Origin: a virus
DNA: 26,141 nucleotides
Direction: 5' to 3' (one strand)
Virus record (IMG/VR): IMGVR_UViG_3300025872_000267
Coordinates: 1 to 26,141 of that record
The notes beneath the pieces were generated by a model. That model had not been told where the DNA came from and made no database searches. It worked only from the letters and a program-made list of their open reading frames with translations. A program made the translations under genes and the position numbers. How positions within the stretch are numbered: the stretch's first letter is position 1; each line of letters starts with the position of its first letter. Below are positions 10,965 to 25,696 of the stretch, one piece after another.

Positions 10965-11402
10965 TTACCTCACAAAAGTCGTTTCAATTGGCCTGAAGCC
11001 TTTTGATTCAAAGTTCATTCTTGGACTTGATTCCATCAGCGTCATGGACATGAAATCAGCTCTTCCAACATCAATCAATTCTTGTGCGTACTTTTGAAAT
11101 CCAAGAAACAGTTTCCCACCCGTCAAGCCACCTCGATGTTCAGGCCGCACCCACCACGCAAGCTCTTTTACCTGCCTAATTTCTGGAATCCATAAATTCG
11201 GGACAATAGCCGCAACAATGATTCCTTTGCCTTCTTCAATCAATACGAATCCGCGCCCAGCAATGATGGACATCAACAATTCTTCAATGTACTGTTGATT
11301 GTGTTTTGTCTTATCTTTGAACGCATCAATTGGACCTTCCAAGGCATAGCTTTGCATCATCTCAAAGCATTCGGCAAGATCAAATTTGTTTGCTTTTCTC
11401 AT
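10965..11402 (-). CDS. GNAT-like N-acetyltransferase-family protein in the tail module
   Basis: This 145-residue protein reads like a compact GNAT fold: an N-terminal MRKANKFDLAECFEMMQSYA helix, a central strand GFVLIEEGKGIIVAAIVP, then ELAWWVRPEHRGG followed by LTGGKLFLGFQKYAQELID. That places a basic/Gly-rich loop where acetyl-CoA binding motif A (R/Q-x-x-G-x-G/A) lies, although the spacing is not canonical. A C-terminal segment with FESKGFRPIETTFVR matches the usual beta-6/7 ending. GNAT-like genes beside tail-tip genes are known in other phages, but their substrate is usually undetermined. It overlaps the upstream gene by ATGA and lies 2 bp before the J-type gene. It could modify a virion or host protein, or be a non-catalytic structural adaptor. 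Confidence 0.7.
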   Translation of the reverse strand: MRKANKFDLAECFEMMQSYALEGPIDAFKDKTKHNQQYIEELLMSIIAGRGFVLIEEGKGIIVAAIVPNLWIPEIRQVKELAWWVRPEHRGGLTGGKLFLGFQKYAQELIDVGRADFMSMTLMESSPRMNFESKGFRPIETTFVR

Positions 11403-16647: not shown

Positions 16648-16815
16648 TTAATGATACTTGGCTAGAACATTAAGAACCACTGCCTCTGCTGTGTCGGCTT
16701 CCACCTCGGAAAGAGCTTCTTGAAGCTCCTCCGAGTCCACCACTTGAGCTTTAGCCGCTGCATCCAGATCGCCCCGAAGTTCGACCAGTTCATCCACGAT
16801 TTCTTGCAGCGTCAT
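16648..16815 (-). CDS. 55-aa acidic helical protein
   Basis: This short gene starts at ATG 16815 in an ATGA overlap with the second major tail protein and ends at TAA 16648-16650, immediately before the ATG of the next gene. The product, MTLQEIVDELVELRGDLDAA and onward, is 55 residues of acidic helix rich in Glu, Asp, Ala, Leu and Val, with heptad-like Leu/Val spacing. There is no membrane segment. Its exact fit between two coupled genes, leaving no unexplained bases, is strong support for it being real. Function unknown; a small coiled-coil adaptor or chaperone partner is only a guess. Confidence 0.75.
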   Translation of the reverse strand: MTLQEIVDELVELRGDLDAAAKAQVVDSEELQEALSEVEADTAEAVVLNVLAKYH

Positions 16816-17330
16816 GTGTTGCTCCAGCCGTATTGACCACCGCGGGGGTGGATGGTGAATGTGGCTTTTGCTTCGGCACCCGGCTGTGCATCGATCTGGA
16901 ATTGACCGACACGGGCATTGAAGGCATAAGCGATTGTGGTGGAGCCATCAACCGCAGCAATCACAAACGTGCGCTCAGTGACGCCAGAATAGGCATCAGA
17001 ACGGATTTGCAACAGTGCCGTATCAGACGGATTCCACGCAGCCGAAATCGTCAGTGACGTAGGAGCCGACTGTGATGGGATTTTGTCCGATTGACGTGAA
17101 CCTGCAACGGAGAACGATGCGACTGCGTCATCTTGTCCAAACGCAGGGATCGCCTCGACAACAAGCTGAGTACCAGCAGTGCCCGTGCCATTAGCTGCGG
17201 TTCCAACAATAGTGGCGACTTGAGCAGTCCAGACCGACAAATTGGCCGTACTAAGTGTCGTGGGAGTGGCCGCAGACTGCATCCAAAGCGATGCACTAAA
17301 GCCGGGAAGAATTTTGTTAGGTGCTGCCAT
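16812..17330 (-). CDS. Second major tail (tube) protein, paralogue B
   Basis: This 172-residue protein is a close paralogue of the gene immediately upstream. Residues 58-104 (VEAIPAFGQDDAVASFSVAG and onward) match the other copy at 45 of 47 positions, and a C-terminal block (YAFNARVGQFQIDAQPGAEA to HPRG) at 29 of 30. The N-terminal third and residues about 105-132 differ, and this copy has an extra Gly/Thr/Ala insertion near 43-54. The DNA of the matching blocks has many third-base changes, so the pair is old and under selection. It has a strong GAGGTGA ribosome binding site 8 bp after the first copy and is coupled to the 55-aa gene. Likely a tail-tube subunit or variant. Confidence 0.85.
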   Translation of the reverse strand: MAAPNKILPGFSASLWMQSAATPTTLSTANLSVWTAQVATIVGTAANGTGTAGTQLVVEAIPAFGQDDAVASFSVAGSRQSDKIPSQSAPTSLTISAAWNPSDTALLQIRSDAYSGVTERTFVIAAVDGSTTIAYAFNARVGQFQIDAQPGAEAKATFTIHPRGGQYGWSNT

Positions 17331-17338
17331 GATTCACC

Positions 17339-17833
17339 TCAAGCGTTGTTAGACCAACCGTACATATTTCCACGCGGATGCAGCGTGAATGTCGCTTTAG
17401 CTTCAGCACCGGGCTGTGCGTCAATTTGGAACTGACCCACGCGGGCGTTGAAAGCGTAGTAAACGATGTTCGAACCATCGGTCGCGGACACCACATAAGT
17501 GCGCTCAGTGATGCCGGAATAGGCGTCTGTGCGGACCTGTTGGATCACGGTATCCGAAGGGTTCCAAGCCGCCGAAATGGTCAGCGAAGTCGGTGCTGCT
17601 TGAGAAGGGATTTTGTCCGACTGACGCGAACCGGCCACCGAGAACGAGGCCACAGCATCGTCTTGACCAAAGGCGGGAACCGCTTCGACCAACAACTGAT
17701 TGCCAGAAACCGCGATGGCAGCAACAGAAGCCAGAGTGGACAACTGCGCCAGCGTCAGGGCCGTAGGAGAGGCTCCCGACTGAGCATAAATCGCAGCACT
17801 AAAACCCGGAAGAATTTTGCTTGGGAGAGCCAT
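17339..17833 (-). CDS. Major tail (tube) protein, paralogue A
   Basis: This 164-residue protein starts MALPSKILPGFSAAIYAQSG with an AAGGGA ribosome binding site, after a 33-bp gap from the tail terminator gene. The compact beta-rich sequence, with SQAAPTSLTISAAWNPSDT and a C-terminal RVGQFQIDAQPGAEAKATFT strand set, and the position right after the terminator gene, identify it as the tail-tube subunit. Tube proteins form stacked hexameric rings around the tape measure. No extra immunoglobulin-like C-terminal domain is present. It and the following gene form a conserved paralogue pair. Which copy is more abundant cannot be told from sequence. Confidence 0.88.
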   Translation of the reverse strand: MALPSKILPGFSAAIYAQSGASPTALTLAQLSTLASVAAIAVSGNQLLVEAVPAFGQDDAVASFSVAGSRQSDKIPSQAAPTSLTISAAWNPSDTVIQQVRTDAYSGITERTYVVSATDGSNIVYYAFNARVGQFQIDAQPGAEAKATFTLHPRGNMYGWSNNA

Positions 17834-18280: not shown

Positions 18281-18618
18281 ACTGCCGTCGTCGGGTCTTG
18301 CCGGTAACACATCAGGAGCACAGTCATACGATCATCGGATTCCCGTGCGCTTTCAATTCGCCAATCAAAACCCTTCCATTTAATGGAATATAGGTTTTGG
18401 TTATCGATGATTTCTTTTGTGTTGGGCGTGTAGTTCAGCGTGAAATACGTCAAATCGTTATACAGACGATACTTATCTGCAATCTTGACTGTATTTGCTA
18501 CCGATGAAACTCGCGCCCTAGTGTTAAACCATTTAGCAATAGTTGTGCTCTGTTCGCCAAAATCACTTTTGCCAAACGTCAGTTCGTTAACAGTGATGTT
18601 TTCAAAACGAGCGACCAT
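18277..18618 (-). CDS. Head closure / head-tail joining protein
   Basis: This 113-residue protein has a central VYRLYNDLTYFTLNYTPNTK-like beta region (residues about 50-70 read KYRLYNDLTYFTLNYTPN) and a WKGFDWRIESARESDDRMTV end. The W.I.....SDDR..V..MC pattern is typical of the SPP1 gp16 / HK97 gp7-type head-closure fold. It overlaps the adaptor stop by one base (TAATG) and the tail terminator by four. Its position between adaptor and terminator is the standard neck order. Confidence 0.8.
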   Translation of the reverse strand: MVARFENITVNELTFGKSDFGEQSTTIAKWFNTRARVSSVANTVKIADKYRLYNDLTYFTLNYTPNTKEIIDNQNLYSIKWKGFDWRIESARESDDRMTVLLMCYRQDPTTAV

Positions 18619-19289
18619 TACATTACCAGCGGTTTGTATGGCTTGAGCAATTGCTCGAATCCAAACGGAATCTTGTGCTGAATAGGACCGGTGGTGTCTG
18701 AGCGGTTGTTATACAAATGCGTCAACAAAAGCAATCCAGCCTGTTGAACAACTGGATACTGAGCGATTGGGTTTGCAACTGTTTTGTACGTTGCAATGAT
18801 CGGCGCAGTCATCGAGTAGTTGATGTTGTCCGGCAAATCAGTCAACACAATCTTGTTGCCCGACGGGTCGTAGTAATACGTTGAAGATGACAGCAACGTA
18901 AACACAGACGGCGTTGAGTTGTTCCAATAACCCACCGATGTGATCGTTACCCCGGGCAACGTAGACACCGTGTTTTGCGAGACCTCTGGAAGATCAAGCG
19001 AAACCGGAACGCCCCACAAAGTCGAGGCGCAGTAGTACACGCGATACGTTACCGGAAAAATTGAAAGGCCAAGATAGTCTTCAACAGCTTGCCGCGTAGC
19101 AAGTTCTAAATTTTGAAGATAAATGTCTTGGCTTTCGTCATCAACAAGGTTCAGTTGTTCAGTGATTTGATTCAGTGACAACCATGAAGTTGAAATGTCA
19201 CGGGCGATCTGTTCAACCTTTTCATAGTTGAAGGGATTACGAGTACTTGCCAGATTTGGCGCATACGCTAACAGATCATTTGTAGCCAT
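18618..19289 (-). CDS. Head-tail connector / adaptor protein, gp6-like
   Basis: This 223-residue protein opens with about 30 variable residues. A helical SLNQITEQLNLVDDESQDIY segment then leads to LQNLELATRQAVEDYLGLSI, the hallmark of gp6-like connector proteins. A long beta-rich C-terminal part (YCASTLWGVPVSLDLP, TSVGYWNN, SSSTYYYDPSGN) and a terminal helical LLLLTHLYNNR segment complete the usual layout. It forms the ring under the portal. It starts one base after the stop of the second capsid gene, with AAGGT as ribosome binding site. Confidence 0.85.
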   Translation of the reverse strand: MATNDLLAYAPNLASTRNPFNYEKVEQIARDISTSWLSLNQITEQLNLVDDESQDIYLQNLELATRQAVEDYLGLSIFPVTYRVYYCASTLWGVPVSLDLPEVSQNTVSTLPGVTITSVGYWNNSTPSVFTLLSSSTYYYDPSGNKIVLTDLPDNINYSMTAPIIATYKTVANPIAQYPVVQQAGLLLLTHLYNNRSDTTGPIQHKIPFGFEQLLKPYKPLVM

Positions 19290-19290
19290 T

Positions 19291-20304
19291 TCAGACCTTC
19301 ATCCGCACACCGGCAAACGGGTCGCGCACCGAGCTGACCACACGTTTTTCAGCATAGAGGTTCACAAAACCGGGCATTGTTTGTTCCATCATCTGGACAG
19401 AAAATTCATTCATGTCACCGATGGTCAAAAAGCGCGGCCAATTCGCCAAATAAATCGGATATGTGCTTGACAAATATGGGTTCGGGATTACAGGCCACCC
19501 AAAGACTCGGCCAACCGCAGCACCGTCTTCGTCGCCTGTTTCCAAAAAGATTGGCAGACCTTGGTTATCAGTCAGATTACGCAAGGTAGTGATCATGGTG
19601 GGATTCATGTGCCACGCTGTTCCGGGAAGCGCCCAATATTGACCCGGCAATTTATTGGCCGTATTGACAATGTCGTTGTATGCAACAGAAACGCCGGAAT
19701 CAAGCGTTGCAATCGTGTGGATGCCATTTGTCATGGCCGTGCCGCTTGAACCAAATGCAGACGCAGCGCCATCAACGTACATATCCAGCCCACGCAAGCC
19801 AGAAGTCGCGCCTGTGGTCGTTGTGGTGCTTCCGGCTTGATCATCATTGATCGCCATGCTTGCGCCTTCGAGTTGCGCAAATTCCAGCATCAAGTCTTCG
19901 ACCAATTCGGTAGGAAGATTATTGACATCGCCCAACACAGCCGAGCGAATCGGCAGTTGAGCGGTAATTGCTCGAACCGGCAGTTGCCAGATCGAAGTGT
20001 TTGTTCCGGGAGAACCGGTGTCGTTTGCAACTGGATAGCCCCAAGGATTTCCAGCTTGATTAGTTGCGTTACCTGTCTTGGCAACGAACTGCATATCAGA
20101 GCCCATCACAGGCACTTGACGCGATCCCATACGAAACGGGTTCGCATAACGCAGAGCAGCAAAAGCATCATCGAAAATAACATTACCACCGACGCCGGAG
20201 CCGGAACCAGTAAGCAACGAGGCTTCAGTCAAATCAATCTTGATTTGTCGCTGCTCGTGAATGGATTGTTTGATTCCGTCAAGGATTTTTTCGGTGATGC
20301 TCAT
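19291..20304 (-). CDS. Second HK97-fold major capsid paralogue lacking the scaffold (delta) region
   Basis: This 337-residue protein is clearly homologous to the capsid gene upstream. Shared features in order are ASLLTGSGSGVGG (residues 28-40), FAALRYANPFR, the WGYPVANDTG and TSIWQL motifs, LPIRSAV, GLRGLDMY, NGIHTIATLD, PGQYWAL, FGWPVIPNPYLS and a C-terminal SVRDPFAGVRMKV. Only 27 residues precede the junction motif, against about 99 in the other copy, so the coiled-coil scaffold is missing. AGGA about 9 bases before the ATG is a good ribosome binding site. It probably needs the longer protein, or another scaffold, for assembly. Roles as vertex protein or mixed-shell subunit are possible. 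The family is clear but the role is inferred. Confidence 0.88.
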   Translation of the reverse strand: MSITEKILDGIKQSIHEQRQIKIDLTEASLLTGSGSGVGGNVIFDDAFAALRYANPFRMGSRQVPVMGSDMQFVAKTGNATNQAGNPWGYPVANDTGSPGTNTSIWQLPVRAITAQLPIRSAVLGDVNNLPTELVEDLMLEFAQLEGASMAINDDQAGSTTTTTGATSGLRGLDMYVDGAASAFGSSGTAMTNGIHTIATLDSGVSVAYNDIVNTANKLPGQYWALPGTAWHMNPTMITTLRNLTDNQGLPIFLETGDEDGAAVGRVFGWPVIPNPYLSSTYPIYLANWPRFLTIGDMNEFSVQMMEQTMPGFVNLYAEKRVVSSVRDPFAGVRMKV

Positions 20305-20323
20305 GGTGTATTCCTAGTGAAAG

Positions 20324-20353
20324 CGAAAAGAGGGGGAAGGTTTCCCTCCCCCC
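20324..20353 (-). terminator. Terminator-like hairpin between the two capsid genes
   Basis: On the minus strand, just after the stop of the 440-aa capsid gene, GGGGG-G-A-GG (20353-20345) pairs with CC-T-T-CCCCC (20340-20332) around a GAAA tetraloop. That is nine pairs, including one G-U. A short T-rich run TCTTTT (20331-20326) follows. This resembles a rho-independent terminator with a weak U-tract, so partial termination or mRNA 3-prime end stabilisation could make the upstream capsid protein more abundant. The gene gap is only 56 bp, and the ribosome binding site of the next gene lies beyond it. Confidence 0.6.
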
Positions 20354-20360
20354 ACTTCTA

Positions 20361-21683
20361 TCAGGTCGCAGTGCCTGTCGAGCGATAACGCACACCGGCG
20401 TTGGGGTCGCGCACACTGGTTGCCAGACGTTTTTCCCCGAACATCGTTATGTAGCCGGGGGCTGTCTGGTCGTATCTCCGCAGAACCATGTTGAGGCGAT
20501 CAACGATGGTGTGGAAGCGCGACCAATCAGCAAAGTACATCGGATACAAGCTGTTCGTGCCAGCAGAACCAGAGGTCGTTTGGCTAGGCGTGTCGAGATA
20601 CTTGTTCATCACGACATCGAAGCCCAACATCTGACCGATGATGCCATCGGGGTTCAGCGACTCGACAGAGTTGAAGATCGGGCGACCGTTGGTGTCTTGC
20701 AGGCCACGAATGGCTTGAGCAAGAATCGGGTTCACCATGAACTTCGCGTCCTTGGTCCAGTACTGCTGAGGCAGTGCGTAGATCAGGTTGATCACATCCT
20801 TGTACTGGATGTTGTTCGCGCCAACGGTGTTAGCGTTGGTGGTCAACTGGTCATACGTTGCCAACGAGTGCAGGCCAGAAGAGCTGCCGGTGCCAGACGA
20901 ACCGAATGCAGCAACCGACGAAGTGCCACCTGCATAGGTAGCATTTGCGCCAGCGTACTGATCCAGACCGCGCAGACCGTTAGAACCACCGTAGGGCAAG
21001 CTAGTAGCACCTTGGTCGTTGTTCTGCACCATGCTGAGGGCCTCACTCTGGGCGAAGCTGGCGAGCATATCATCAACGATCACAGCCTCCAACCCGTCGA
21101 TGTCATCCAGAGCCGCAGTACGGATCGGGAATTGCACGTTGAGGTCTTGCAGCACCAATTGCCAAATGCTTGTGTCTTCAGTCGTGGCCGCTGTGTTGTT
21201 CACAATCGGGTAGCCCCAGCCTTCACCGGGGTTGCCCACGCGCACGCGAAACTGATAGCTTGAGCCATCAGTAGCAACAGTACGCGACAGACCGCGCATC
21301 GGGTTCAGCAGACGCAGGGCCGTGAAGGTGGGGTCATAAGCGGTGCGACCGCCCTTGCCATCACCACCACCGGTCAACTGCGATGCTTCCTTCATGTAGG
21401 CATCGTATTGGCCTTCATCGTCAAACATCTTCAGTTCTTTTTCAAACTGAGGCTTGCCACCGATGTACTCTTTGACTTGCTCTTTGACCTTGCGGTTCAC
21501 GTCTTGACGAACGCTTTTGGCGATCGGTTTGACGATAGCGGGAGCTTGCACAGAAGCAACTTTGGCTTCCAGAGCAGCAACCTTCTCAGAAAATTCGGCC
21601 TTGACCGCTTCAACGGACTCGGCAACTTTTGCGAGTGTGGACTCTTGAATAGCGTCCAGCTTTTCCATAATAACTTGAGACAT
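20361..21683 (-). CDS. HK97-fold major capsid protein with N-terminal scaffold (delta) domain
   Basis: This 440-residue protein has a long N-terminal charged coiled-coil region (residues 1 to about 100, SQVIMEKLDAIQESTLAKVA onward), the usual delta domain that acts as scaffold and is removed by the prohead protease. The shell part begins near ASQLTGGGDGKGG (100-112) and continues with FTALRLLNPMRG, GWGYPIVNN, TSIWQLVLQDL, FPIRTAALDD, GLRGLDQY, QQYWTKDAKFMVNPI, GQMLGFDVVMNKYL and SVRDPNAGVRYR. The portion after the junction is about 337 residues, a normal mature size. It lies two bases after the protease gene, with AAAGG as ribosome binding site. It is probably the main shell subunit. Confidence 0.92.
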   Translation of the reverse strand: MSQVIMEKLDAIQESTLAKVAESVEAVKAEFSEKVAALEAKVASVQAPAIVKPIAKSVRQDVNRKVKEQVKEYIGGKPQFEKELKMFDDEGQYDAYMKEASQLTGGGDGKGGRTAYDPTFTALRLLNPMRGLSRTVATDGSSYQFRVRVGNPGEGWGYPIVNNTAATTEDTSIWQLVLQDLNVQFPIRTAALDDIDGLEAVIVDDMLASFAQSEALSMVQNNDQGATSLPYGGSNGLRGLDQYAGANATYAGGTSSVAAFGSSGTGSSSGLHSLATYDQLTTNANTVGANNIQYKDVINLIYALPQQYWTKDAKFMVNPILAQAIRGLQDTNGRPIFNSVESLNPDGIIGQMLGFDVVMNKYLDTPSQTTSGSAGTNSLYPMYFADWSRFHTIVDRLNMVLRRYDQTAPGYITMFGEKRLATSVRDPNAGVRYRSTGTAT

Positions 21684-21685
21684 GA

Positions 21686-22486
21686 TTAGCCTTTCAAACG
21701 GGCGTTGAGGAGTTCGAGAAGCTCGCGCTCTTCGAGAGCAGCAAGAATCTCTGCTTCGGTCGCTTCCGCATCAGAATCACTCTGCTGCGTCGCAGGTTCA
21801 ATCACTTGTTTCACAGCATCACGCTGCTCCAACACTTGCTTGAACGTAGATGCGGCAGCGACCGCATCCTTCTTTGAAAGCCCAACATCCCGCAGAGCTT
21901 GCTCAAGAACTTTTAGATCGGCAGAACCATCAGCACGGAAATATTCGAGCTTTTGAACTTCGGCCATCGGATTATTTGGGTGCATCACAACGGACACTTC
22001 ACGCAAACCACCTTTGGTGATTTGGAAATAACCGTCTTCATATGAATCATCAGACCCAACAGTCATTGGTGTGCCGTCTTCTTTGACCCACTGATATTCA
22101 TCAGCGTAAGCACCAACAGAAACCCCGCCAAACATAGCAGGGCTTTCAGTCATTATTTGATAAAGGTCGGAGCCGGTAGTAGTGTTGACATACATACGAC
22201 CGCACGCAGTCATACCAGTATCGTCAAACTCGAAAGAAGTCCATTCGCCAACAGGAATCGCGCTTGATTCGTGATTGACATACATCGGCAAAGGACGGCC
22301 AGCTTTAGAAAACTCTTCAGCCCATTGCATAAAGCCTTCGGGCTGATAATTGAATTTACGTCCGTCTGCGCCTTCGCGTGCGCCCCAAGTCGTTACCCGA
22401 GCCTCAATTTTGCCGGTCGGTTCTGCGTGGTCTGCCTCTTTTTCGAGGTTCAGGCGTGCTTCGCAGACAATCTGGACTTGTTTCAT
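21686..22486 (-). CDS. Prohead protease, S78 family
   Basis: This 266-residue protein has the His-Ser-Glu arrangement of HK97 gp4-like proteases: H72 in YVNHESSAIP, S123 in GGVSVGAYAD and E163 in GGLREVSVVMHP. Residues 1-35 are the usual N-terminal strand region and the C-terminus (about 200-266) is a Glu/Ala-rich helical tail, probably removed by autoprocessing. It trims the delta domain from the capsid protein during head maturation. AGGGGT before the ATG is a good ribosome binding site. The first 83 coding bases overlap the small AT-hook-like ORF in another frame. Confidence 0.9.
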   Translation of the reverse strand: MKQVQIVCEARLNLEKEADHAEPTGKIEARVTTWGAREGADGRKFNYQPEGFMQWAEEFSKAGRPLPMYVNHESSAIPVGEWTSFEFDDTGMTACGRMYVNTTTGSDLYQIMTESPAMFGGVSVGAYADEYQWVKEDGTPMTVGSDDSYEDGYFQITKGGLREVSVVMHPNNPMAEVQKLEYFRADGSADLKVLEQALRDVGLSKKDAVAAASTFKQVLEQRDAVKQVIEPATQQSDSDAEATEAEILAALEERELLELLNARLKG

Positions 22487-22595: not shown

Positions 22596-23993
22596 TCAAG
22601 TCTTTCCAATATTGGCTCGACGTTGCTGATTCCCGCCGCCGCCGCCAGTATCTTGCGGGGATGAGCCGGGGGTCGGTTCAGCCTTTTTGGCGTCTTCTTT
22701 TAGCTTGTCGCCGCCCTCAATCGAAGGCATACCCAAATATTCTCGGGCCTCATTTGGAGTCATTATGCCACCGCTGACAGCTGCGGACACAAAGTTAACT
22801 TGGTCCAGCGGAGCACCTTTTAGGAAGTTCCGAGTATCAAATTCGATATGCAAAGACGGATATCCGTTCAAAAGTGCCAATTTCAGCTTTTGCTGGATAT
22901 TGGTAATGATCGGGAACATAGTGGACTTATAAAACTCGTCCAACAGCGTCTGAGTATTATTGTATTTTTGGTCTTGAATGCCAATCATTGCAGGCGGCAC
23001 GCCAAACAGACCACAAATGCGCTTCATTGTTTGCAGCTTGAGCTCCCGGGCGTCAGCGTCTTGCAGGTTGAGCATATTCAGTGGCTCATACTTCATCCCA
23101 GAGTCCAGCAACATACCTTGACCGGGTTTTGAAGGGTCAGTCTGTCGAGAACTGGTCATCGAGGCCCAAGCCTCCTTGAGTCGAGCGGCAATTTCTTTGT
23201 ATTTGCCGTCTGGAATGACTTGCTCAGTGACAAACATACCCGAGGGCTTTGCGCCGTTCAGCATGATGTAGTTGGCGTATAGGTCGATATCTTGGTCAAG
23301 GCTGACCAATTCGACCGCCAAAATACCACGGTTAAAGCCAGCGGAGCCCTGCCACGGGGCTTCTTTGATATGCATGACTTGATGGGCCTGCAATGGCTCA
23401 TCTTTGCTGAAGCCATACGAAGGCGTGCTCAAGCGGTATTGTGGATATCGCGTGGGCGTAATTTGGACCGCAATCAACGTGGAGTCCAAGATGTACATCT
23501 CGATAGGCGTCTGCGTGGCATTCGCTTGGTCTTTGCGCCACCAAAGGGTAAACGCCTCGCCCGTCAGGTCGTGCCACATCAACCACTGATACCAAAACTC
23601 GTATTGCGACTGAAAGGCGTTTGGAGCCTGCAGAAGATTCAGTACTTGATTGGCCTTAGTAGAGTTGTGCTTTGATACCTTGTCAGACGTTGTTGCATCG
23701 ACAAAAGTGCCATCTTCCAGCTTGCACATAATGCGAACTGGGAGCTGAGACAAAGCACGCGCCTTGGTCGAAACGCAGGCCATTACGGTTGAATTGCGAC
23801 TCAAAACCGAAATATCAATGAGCCTGCCTGCCTGATTGACCGAAGACGTGGTCACATACAGAATCTGAGTGTTTACCGTGGGCTTTTTATTGTCGCCTTG
23901 GTATACGATGTTATTACCAAGAGCAGTCTGTCCAAACAGCGTATTGCTCTCGGTTTGGTCAGATTTTTTACGGAAAATGTCCAGAATTCCCAT
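22596..23993 (-). CDS. Portal protein, HK97 gp3-like
   Basis: This 465-residue protein has the layout of HK97-type portals: STVMACVSTKARALSQLPVR near residue 70, YEFWYQWLMWHDLTGEAFTL near 130, KPSGMFVTEQVIPDGKYKEI near 250, and GLFGVPPAMIGIQDQKYNNT near 345. The C-terminus (from about 400) has the typical IMTPNEAREYLGMPSIEGGD segment and ends in a Gly/Gln-rich tail (GGGGGNQQRR). The 12-subunit ring forms the DNA entry vertex and docks the terminase. GGGAG lies a few bases before the ATG, in a 23-bp gap after the large terminase. Confidence 0.94.
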   Translation of the reverse strand: MGILDIFRKKSDQTESNTLFGQTALGNNIVYQGDNKKPTVNTQILYVTTSSVNQAGRLIDISVLSRNSTVMACVSTKARALSQLPVRIMCKLEDGTFVDATTSDKVSKHNSTKANQVLNLLQAPNAFQSQYEFWYQWLMWHDLTGEAFTLWWRKDQANATQTPIEMYILDSTLIAVQITPTRYPQYRLSTPSYGFSKDEPLQAHQVMHIKEAPWQGSAGFNRGILAVELVSLDQDIDLYANYIMLNGAKPSGMFVTEQVIPDGKYKEIAARLKEAWASMTSSRQTDPSKPGQGMLLDSGMKYEPLNMLNLQDADARELKLQTMKRICGLFGVPPAMIGIQDQKYNNTQTLLDEFYKSTMFPIITNIQQKLKLALLNGYPSLHIEFDTRNFLKGAPLDQVNFVSAAVSGGIMTPNEAREYLGMPSIEGGDKLKEDAKKAEPTPGSSPQDTGGGGGNQQRRANIGKT

Positions 23994-24016: not shown

Positions 24017-25696
24017 CTATAACTCAAGCGACCGAAATCCAAATGCATTTGACACAAAGACGTTGTCCAAATGGCAGTGTACAGCCATAATCATTGAAAT
24101 GATTCCGTCCACCTTTGCGGAAGGATCACTTTCGTTCTTTCGAACCTTGATATTGCCATTTACGTCGGTATAAACCTCGCAATTGCCCAATTGCCAGCCA
24201 ACAAACGGATTGCCGTCATGCTTAATGGCCTTTTTCATTATTAGCTGCTCAGTGGCCTTGGATGGGCTACTTAGCATCGCCATGCCCTGTCCAATCTTCT
24301 TTACCGGTAGCCCATCGGCGTACAGGTTGGCGACCAAATTGGTGGCATTGTAGGGGTCATAGCCGATTTCCTTGACCTTGTAGGCCGCGCATTGAGCTCG
24401 GACATAGGTCTCGATTTCGTTTGTGTCCGTTACATTGCCCTGCGTCAATTTCAAAATGCCGGTTTTAACAGCCTGTAGGTAAATACCCTTATAGTGGTTG
24501 GGCACCAAATCGAGCGATTCCTCGGGCAAGAAGAATTGGAACTTTGCGTAGAAGTCTTCTTCGTCGTAGCGGAAAAGCGTGCAGACCGCATTCAAATCTC
24601 GGGAATACGCCAAGTCAAATGCCACAAAAACGCTTTCTGGCTCTGCGGTCGGAAACTCGGCAATCGAGTCATCCCAGAAAGCTCGATTTAGCCAAGCAGA
24701 GTTGGCAGAAACGTAAATATTGAGCTGCTTACAAAGAAACTCGTTCAAGCTGGCCGGTTTGGCAGACGCCTCCTTTGCCATTTGAGAAATGTGCTCTTCA
24801 GAAACCGAAATCCCAAGCATTGGATTGGCTTTGCCCCATGTCTTGGGGTCGGCCCAATTGTCGCCTTGGTCAATCGAGTACAGAAGGCCAAACCACTTAA
24901 ATGTGTCTTCCGATGTGCCTCGAAGCACGGTTCTAAAGTGAGACAAATCCTCGAAGAACTTGGTTTCCTTGGTAAAGCTCGCCGTTGTCATGTACAACCG
25001 CAGCGGGTTCTTGCGAGCGCCCATACCGGAATGCAGCACTTCAATTGAGGACCGCTCGGTAATCTGAGCTGCCTCGTCAATCATCGCGCAGGACGGATTC
25101 TTGCCGTCGCCGGTCTTGCGGTTTTCCCGAGATAGTGCCCGGTAGGTAGAAGTCGAGTCACCCTGCTTTTTGATCTCTGAGCGATACATCAAAAACTTGG
25201 CCGCAAGGTTTTCGTCCATCGCCTCGACAATGGCCTTCGAGGAGTCAAAGCAAATAGATGCTTGGTCTCGATTGGTCGCCAGCGTGAAGATTTCAGAACC
25301 TGCGTCCCCAAACTGAAGCTCGTAAAGCCCGATAATCGAGGCCACAGTAGTCTTGCCCGACTTACGCGGCACGAACAGGATAACGTCAGTCACCCAGCGT
25401 TTAGAGTGGTCCCTGCGATCCCTGAAACCATAAATGCCAGCCAAGAACAGAATCTGGAATGGCTGTAATTGGATTGGTTTTCCAGCGTCAGGCCCTTTAA
25501 CGTGCTTACAGAACTTGACAAATTTGAGGATGTGCTCCGCTTTGGCAGGAACAAATTCATAAGCGGCGTCTTTGCGCTCGGCCATGTCCAGAAACCTCTG
25601 GCACGCTAGCCGAACATCCTCACACGCTACAACATCCCCGCGGCATACGCTCGAAGCGTACTGAAAGGCTGGCTCAAGCAGTGGCGAATAATTCAT
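24017..25696 (-). CDS. terL: Terminase large subunit
   Basis: This 559-residue packaging motor has a Walker A motif VPRKSGKTT at 109-117, Walker B AMIDEA at 204-209 and a coupling motif TTAS at 237-240. The C-terminal nuclease half shows acidic residues D361 (FDLAYSRDL), D447 (IGYDPYN) and D530 (AKVDGIISM), with the family hallmark CEVYTDVNGNIKVRKNE nearby. It matches the Terminase_1/HK97-type family and has a normal length. It couples ATP hydrolysis to DNA translocation into the prohead and cuts the concatemer. The start at 25696 overlaps the small subunit by 23 bp with only a weak AGAAGT ribosome binding site, so translation is probably coupled. Confidence 0.95.
   Translation of the reverse strand: MNYSPLLEPAFQYASSVCRGDVVACEDVRLACQRFLDMAERKDAAYEFVPAKAEHILKFVKFCKHVKGPDAGKPIQLQPFQILFLAGIYGFRDRRDHSKRWVTDVILFVPRKSGKTTVASIIGLYELQFGDAGSEIFTLATNRDQASICFDSSKAIVEAMDENLAAKFLMYRSEIKKQGDSTSTYRALSRENRKTGDGKNPSCAMIDEAAQITERSSIEVLHSGMGARKNPLRLYMTTASFTKETKFFEDLSHFRTVLRGTSEDTFKWFGLLYSIDQGDNWADPKTWGKANPMLGISVSEEHISQMAKEASAKPASLNEFLCKQLNIYVSANSAWLNRAFWDDSIAEFPTAEPESVFVAFDLAYSRDLNAVCTLFRYDEEDFYAKFQFFLPEESLDLVPNHYKGIYLQAVKTGILKLTQGNVTDTNEIETYVRAQCAAYKVKEIGYDPYNATNLVANLYADGLPVKKIGQGMAMLSSPSKATEQLIMKKAIKHDGNPFVGWQLGNCEVYTDVNGNIKVRKNESDPSAKVDGIISMIMAVHCHLDNVFVSNAFGFRSLEL

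Follow-up and report, generated by a model that had tools for sequence, protein, structure and literature searches.

Tandem HK97-fold capsid paralogues in the head operon of small aquatic siphoviruses, with a candidate scaffold-less vertex subunit

In most tailed phages a single capsid protein supplies both the hexamers and the pentamers of the head, T4 being the textbook exception. The two-protein T4 shell is described as exceptional among well-studied phages (PMC9958956, PMC3185693); its hexamers are built of gp23 and its pentameric vertices of gp24, HK97-fold paralogues of which one is thought to have been duplicated from the other, and gp23 loses 65 N-terminal residues where gp24 loses only 10 (PMC9958956). 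A comparable partnership exists between the capsid protein (CP) of Staphylococcus phage phi12 and its HK97-fold homologue Ccm, which makes the pentamers of SaPIbov5 procapsids and has a shorter delta domain than phi12 CP (mature start at 88 vs 129; PMC8569155), and a non-viral one in the Family 2B encapsulin of Streptomyces lydicus, whose two HK97-fold shell proteins Enc1 and Enc2 are encoded together and co-assemble (PMC12407261). Two-protein HK97-fold shells are thus already known; the pair described here is new for its siphovirus lineage, as is the covarying terminator-like hairpin that follows its first gene. The openly accessible literature searched contained no described second major capsid protein in siphophages and no capsid pair in this lineage.

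The window analysed (the whole 26.1 kb of virus DNA in IMG/VR record IMGVR_UViG_3300025872_000267) carries its head and tail genes on the minus strand: terminase small and large subunits, portal, protease, capsid A, capsid B, connector, and tail. Capsid A (20361..21683, minus strand, 440 aa; PF05065 1.5e-26) is an HK97-type major capsid protein with an N-terminal delta-like domain, and capsid B (19291..20304, minus strand, 337 aa; PF05065 4.5e-17) is an HK97-fold paralogue with a short N-terminal peptide. Both exceed the curated cut-off of 24.2 bits for Pfam Phage_capsid (A 93.9, B 62.8), which was the sole Pfam match at E 0.001, and both match PHROG major head protein families; neither matched the T4-type capsid family. 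The two proteins share 37% identity over 380 columns (BLASTP, E = 5e-69), so their resemblance is not due to chance. The pair lies between the prohead protease (Peptidase_S78, 21686..22486, minus strand; PF04586 7.2e-08), directly upstream of A, and a head–tail connector directly downstream of B (18618..19289, minus strand; PHROG head-tail adaptor, PF05135), with the portal protein (22596..23993, minus strand; PF04860 5.3e-60) and terminase large subunit (24017..25696, minus strand; PF20441 and PF03354) beyond. Each gene has a Shine–Dalgarno-like sequence just upstream (AAAGG at about 21690–21694 for A, AGGA at about 20312–20315 for B), and a core of at least 3 nt precedes A in 189 and B in 187 of 195 pairs from the window and its relatives.

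A and B are confirmed as homologous HK97-type capsid paralogues in a single head operon. The coordinates, strand, lengths, motifs and motif order given in the original prediction all held, as did its claims that each gene has its own ribosome binding site and that a head operon with a pair of intact HK97-fold paralogues is unusual for a siphovirus. Its wording of both proteins as "major" capsid proteins did not, the evidence set out below pointing to unequal expression.

Structure prediction had been proposed as a check, and for B it bears out the HK97 fold: the AlphaFold2 model (pLDDT 65, pTM 0.68) finds its best HK97-fold match in the RcGTA capsid (Foldseek E 2e-15, VIA Z 20.6). The model of A reached a pLDDT of 44, and its HK97 fold is assigned from sequence families. 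The RcGTA major capsid protein (Rcc01687) is also the only clear sequence-profile relative of the pair among solved structures (A 4e-09, B 3e-07), although its entries list one major capsid protein and its identity to B is under 20%.

The principal difference between the two proteins lies at the N-terminus. Residues about 1–99 of A (21387..21683, minus strand) form a putative delta (scaffold-like) region, upstream of a junction, E-A-S-x-L-T, that is common to A and B; the E-A-S of this junction falls near residue 27 in B vs about 99–107 in A. The roughly 100 residues ahead of it in A are predicted, at low confidence, to be mostly helical, whereas B has in their place a short N-terminal peptide (residues about 1–26; 20227..20304, minus strand), the delta region being largely absent from B in alignments. 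These features fit a delta domain carried by A and nearly absent from B. Beyond its N-terminus B is a full HK97 subunit, and 59 positions are nearly invariant and identical across the A and B groups. Divergence is greatest in the parts of the A-domain around the capsomer axis (consensus identity 35–43%), with the N-arm, E-loop and P-domain more alike (48–65%); the limits of these segments were set by us from the secondary structure of the model. In HK97-type phages the capsid N-terminus is expected to be cleaved by the adjacent S78 protease, and by this analogy the Peptidase_S78 protein would be expected to cut A, and perhaps B.

Set against the described systems, the arrangement resembles that of T4, whose N-terminal regions of 65 and 10 residues are paralleled by about 100 (A) and about 26 (B). 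T4 differs in being a 171-kb prolate myovirus with gp23/gp24 identity of about 20% (vs 37% for A and B), whereas A and B match PF05065 only and belong to small siphovirus-type genomes. The gene for Ccm lies on a parasitic island, and its product redirects capsid size; the gene for B adjoins that for A in the same phage genome. Enc1/Enc2 does not belong to a virus and differs further in its variable composition and irregular tiling; to our knowledge, it has no portal, protease or delta domain.

The pair is retained throughout its relatives. Profile searches run over 277 capsid-bearing loci (window included) detected A together with B in 262; each of the remaining 15 has less than 300 bp between its single capsid gene and the end of the contig, and no single-gene locus occurred among those of the 277 with at least 300 bp of adjoining sequence. 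Loci were fetched with A and with B as separate queries, and the pair was seen in both sets, which shows that the pairing is not an effect of the query used; such searches return the closest matches, and distant single-gene relatives could be missed. Absence or disruption of the second gene in all close relatives, which would have told against the original prediction, is thus not what these loci show: among the 262, only L009 and L056 have an interrupted B, and operon order is identical in all loci compared. One relative, L003, is 87% identical to the window in B, 84% in portal and 82% in protease, yet only 69% in A, which looks as though recombination had replaced A separately from B.

Among 50,697 phage records searched at E 1e-5, the only genome matching A or B was that of Methylophilaceae phage P19250A (KX815270), an isolated phage whose gp5 and gp6 form the same pair in the same order (A 60%, B 55% identical) and which differs from the window in nothing essential. 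Its B gene is annotated "hypothetical" and the pair is not described in its record, an annotation that a capsid role for B would correct. IMG/VR holds many more relatives of A and B than the phage records do, and the two-capsid lineage is one of widespread small aquatic tailed phages. A contig of the family (L189, JAHEYD010000010.1) has been assigned to a genome bin labelled Nitrosotalea, which is an archaeon; this is probably a binning error. Methylophilales phage Venkman (MT375522), described as similar in synteny to P19250A (PMC8163748), was considered as a relative of the pair and rejected: its annotated head genes are of another type, a single capsid gene and a separate scaffolding gene, and neither A nor B found a match in it.

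Trees of 42 A and 42 B sequences are divided by a single branch that parts all A from all B (support 100 without an outgroup). With five outgroup capsids added, clade support is 98 for A and 85 for B, but with two it drops to 57 and 78; the root is unstable because the outgroup capsids are far away. The simplest reading of these trees is one duplication before the lineage diversified, and since A and B match PF05065 and not the T4-type family, that duplication would have been independent of gp23/gp24. No intermediate between the A/B family and single-capsid phages was found in the phage matches, the next of which beyond P19250A are partial (about 20–38% identity). Five phage records examined have one capsid gene at the corresponding place; in ST64B, sb5 is labelled "major head protein" yet stands at the protease position. 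A and B are under similar purifying selection (median dN/dS about 0.14 for each), with B the faster in amino-acid change (mean distance 0.39 vs 0.29 for A), and the correlation of A and B distances was no higher than that between neighbouring gene pairs.

The gap between the two genes, usually 37–94 nt (195 distinct complete pairs), contains a terminator-like hairpin (20331..20353 in the window, minus strand), a G/C-rich stem followed by CTTTTC. It has the G/C-rich hairpin and the T tract on the transcribed strand by which intrinsic terminators are recognized in sequence, and no other site in a 19-kb scan has as many stem pairs. A strict search found a terminator-like site in 163 of 187 gaps vs 122 of 3740 dinucleotide shuffles (3.3%); the remaining gaps, about 13%, fail this test, and in the L013 group the hairpin lacks a T tract. 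The relatives present 98 different hairpin sequences. For eight of the nine stem pairs at least one relative has both partners altered; 92% of cells are paired, and covariation scores higher than in any shuffle or any slid control. Seven loci have a longer gap (339–574 nt) with an extra ORF after the hairpin; the hairpin remains at the end of A, and hence belongs to the 3′ end of that gene. The ORF between hairpin and gene B is of about 100 aa in L122, L126, L128, L132, L133 and L151, and in L146 (4426–5000) it resembles, by eye, a GIY-YIG homing endonuclease. By what is generally known of such elements, the hairpin would be expected to stop some of the transcripts, so that B probably lies behind a leaky terminator.

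Codon usage offers a second, likewise indirect, hint that B may be made in fewer copies than A. The effective number of codons (taken in 150-codon samples; lower values denote stronger bias) is 39.4 for A, 42.3 for the tail tube, 43.3 for B, 48.4 for the connector, 49.9 for portal, 50.1 for protease and 51.5 for TerL, ranking bias as A, then tail tube and B together, then connector, portal and protease, then TerL. The window taken by itself shows only a weak contrast (A 44.8, B 52.5, portal 53.4). If bias tracks expression, B would be produced more abundantly than portal and connector but less so than A.

In the reading that we consider best supported, A bears the scaffold and forms the lattice, and B is a shell subunit of lower copy number, most likely the one at the pentameric vertices; we assign this a probability of about one half. 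As major capsid protein and carrier of the delta domain, A would build the hexameric lattice and drive prohead assembly; B, derived from the same ancestor through one old duplication and having lost most of the delta domain, would co-assemble with A at lower copy and most likely supply the pentamers of every vertex except that of the portal (some 55 copies, should the shell be T=7). The protease would then trim A of its delta domain and B perhaps of its short N-terminal peptide. The hairpin after A would let only part of the transcripts through to B, the connector and the tail genes, so that transcription would account at least in part for the A:B ratio, with B translated from its own ribosome binding site. 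We infer the presence of B in virions, and by analogy its vertex location; termination with read-through at the hairpin, the T number and the cleavages are likewise deduced. The original prediction had offered a relationship like that of gp24 to gp23 as one option, and this is now favoured by the loss of most of the delta domain from B, the conserved hairpin and the intermediate codon bias, the vertex site itself being taken from analogy. A lower dose of B would suit other minor roles too, and Ccm keeps a delta domain, so loss of that domain is not needed for a vertex role. The more specific proposition, that these siphoviruses of ~38 kb independently evolved a vertex protein that shed its own scaffold domain and left the scaffold to the major subunit, the ratio of the two being governed by a conserved leaky terminator, we hold tentatively, at somewhat less than even odds.

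Two other readings would also place B in or on the same particle as A. In the main rival, both proteins would share one lattice, in mixed hexamers or an irregular tiling for which the two-component Family 2B encapsulin provides a precedent (PMC12407261). The A-like consensus residues kept in the N-arm, E-loop and P-domain of B (48–65%) would suit such mixing, and a codon bias like that of the tail tube protein suggests that B may be abundant; the conserved terminator-like hairpin and the weaker bias of B relative to A nonetheless point to unequal amounts, and B lacks most of the domain that would help every hexamer position assemble, making a mixed shell unlikely in our judgement. A little less likely again is a minor shell-associated or assembly protein with no regular lattice position, such as a portal-vertex adaptor, a determinant of size or shape, or a surface-bound subunit. 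This would accommodate the low-copy signals of hairpin and codon bias, and Ccm shows that an HK97-fold homologue can redirect capsid size (PMC8569155), but B shows stronger codon bias than the genes for the 12-copy portal and connector, and it keeps a whole HK97-type subunit, with 59 residues invariant across the A and B groups, which is more than peripheral binding should need.

That A and B are instead interchangeable, one or the other being used according to condition or particle size, had been raised in the original prediction and is at odds with their strict co-retention and with the same operon order everywhere. Both genes are intact and under purifying selection, as alternative capsids would be; B, however, is without most of the delta domain and has no obvious separate scaffold gene beside it, and we regard this reading as improbable. 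The faster amino-acid change of B and its interruption in L009 and L056 might suggest that B is a degenerating duplicate of little or no use, an interpretation that a dN/dS of about 0.14 and an intact B in nearly all of the 262 loci leave with scarcely any credibility. Should the division into lattice and vertex subunits hold, these small, environmentally common siphoviruses would furnish a second, independent T4-like case, with P19250A as an isolate; the split of one capsid protein into hexamer and pentamer specialists would become testable, as would the ability of a scaffold-bearing subunit to recruit a scaffold-less one and the means by which their ratio is set.

The window contains another tandem pair among its structural genes, two major tail protein paralogues of 164 and 172 aa (17339–17833 and 16812–17330, both minus strand) that are 71% identical and both match phrog_158. 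Among the 70 relatives whose sequence extends far enough, both copies occur in 17 and a single copy in 53, and P19250A too has a single copy; this is apparently a second tandem duplication of a structural gene, either more recent or often lost. An acetyltransferase-like protein is also encoded among the tail genes (10965–11402, minus strand; phrog_1249, 8e-09).
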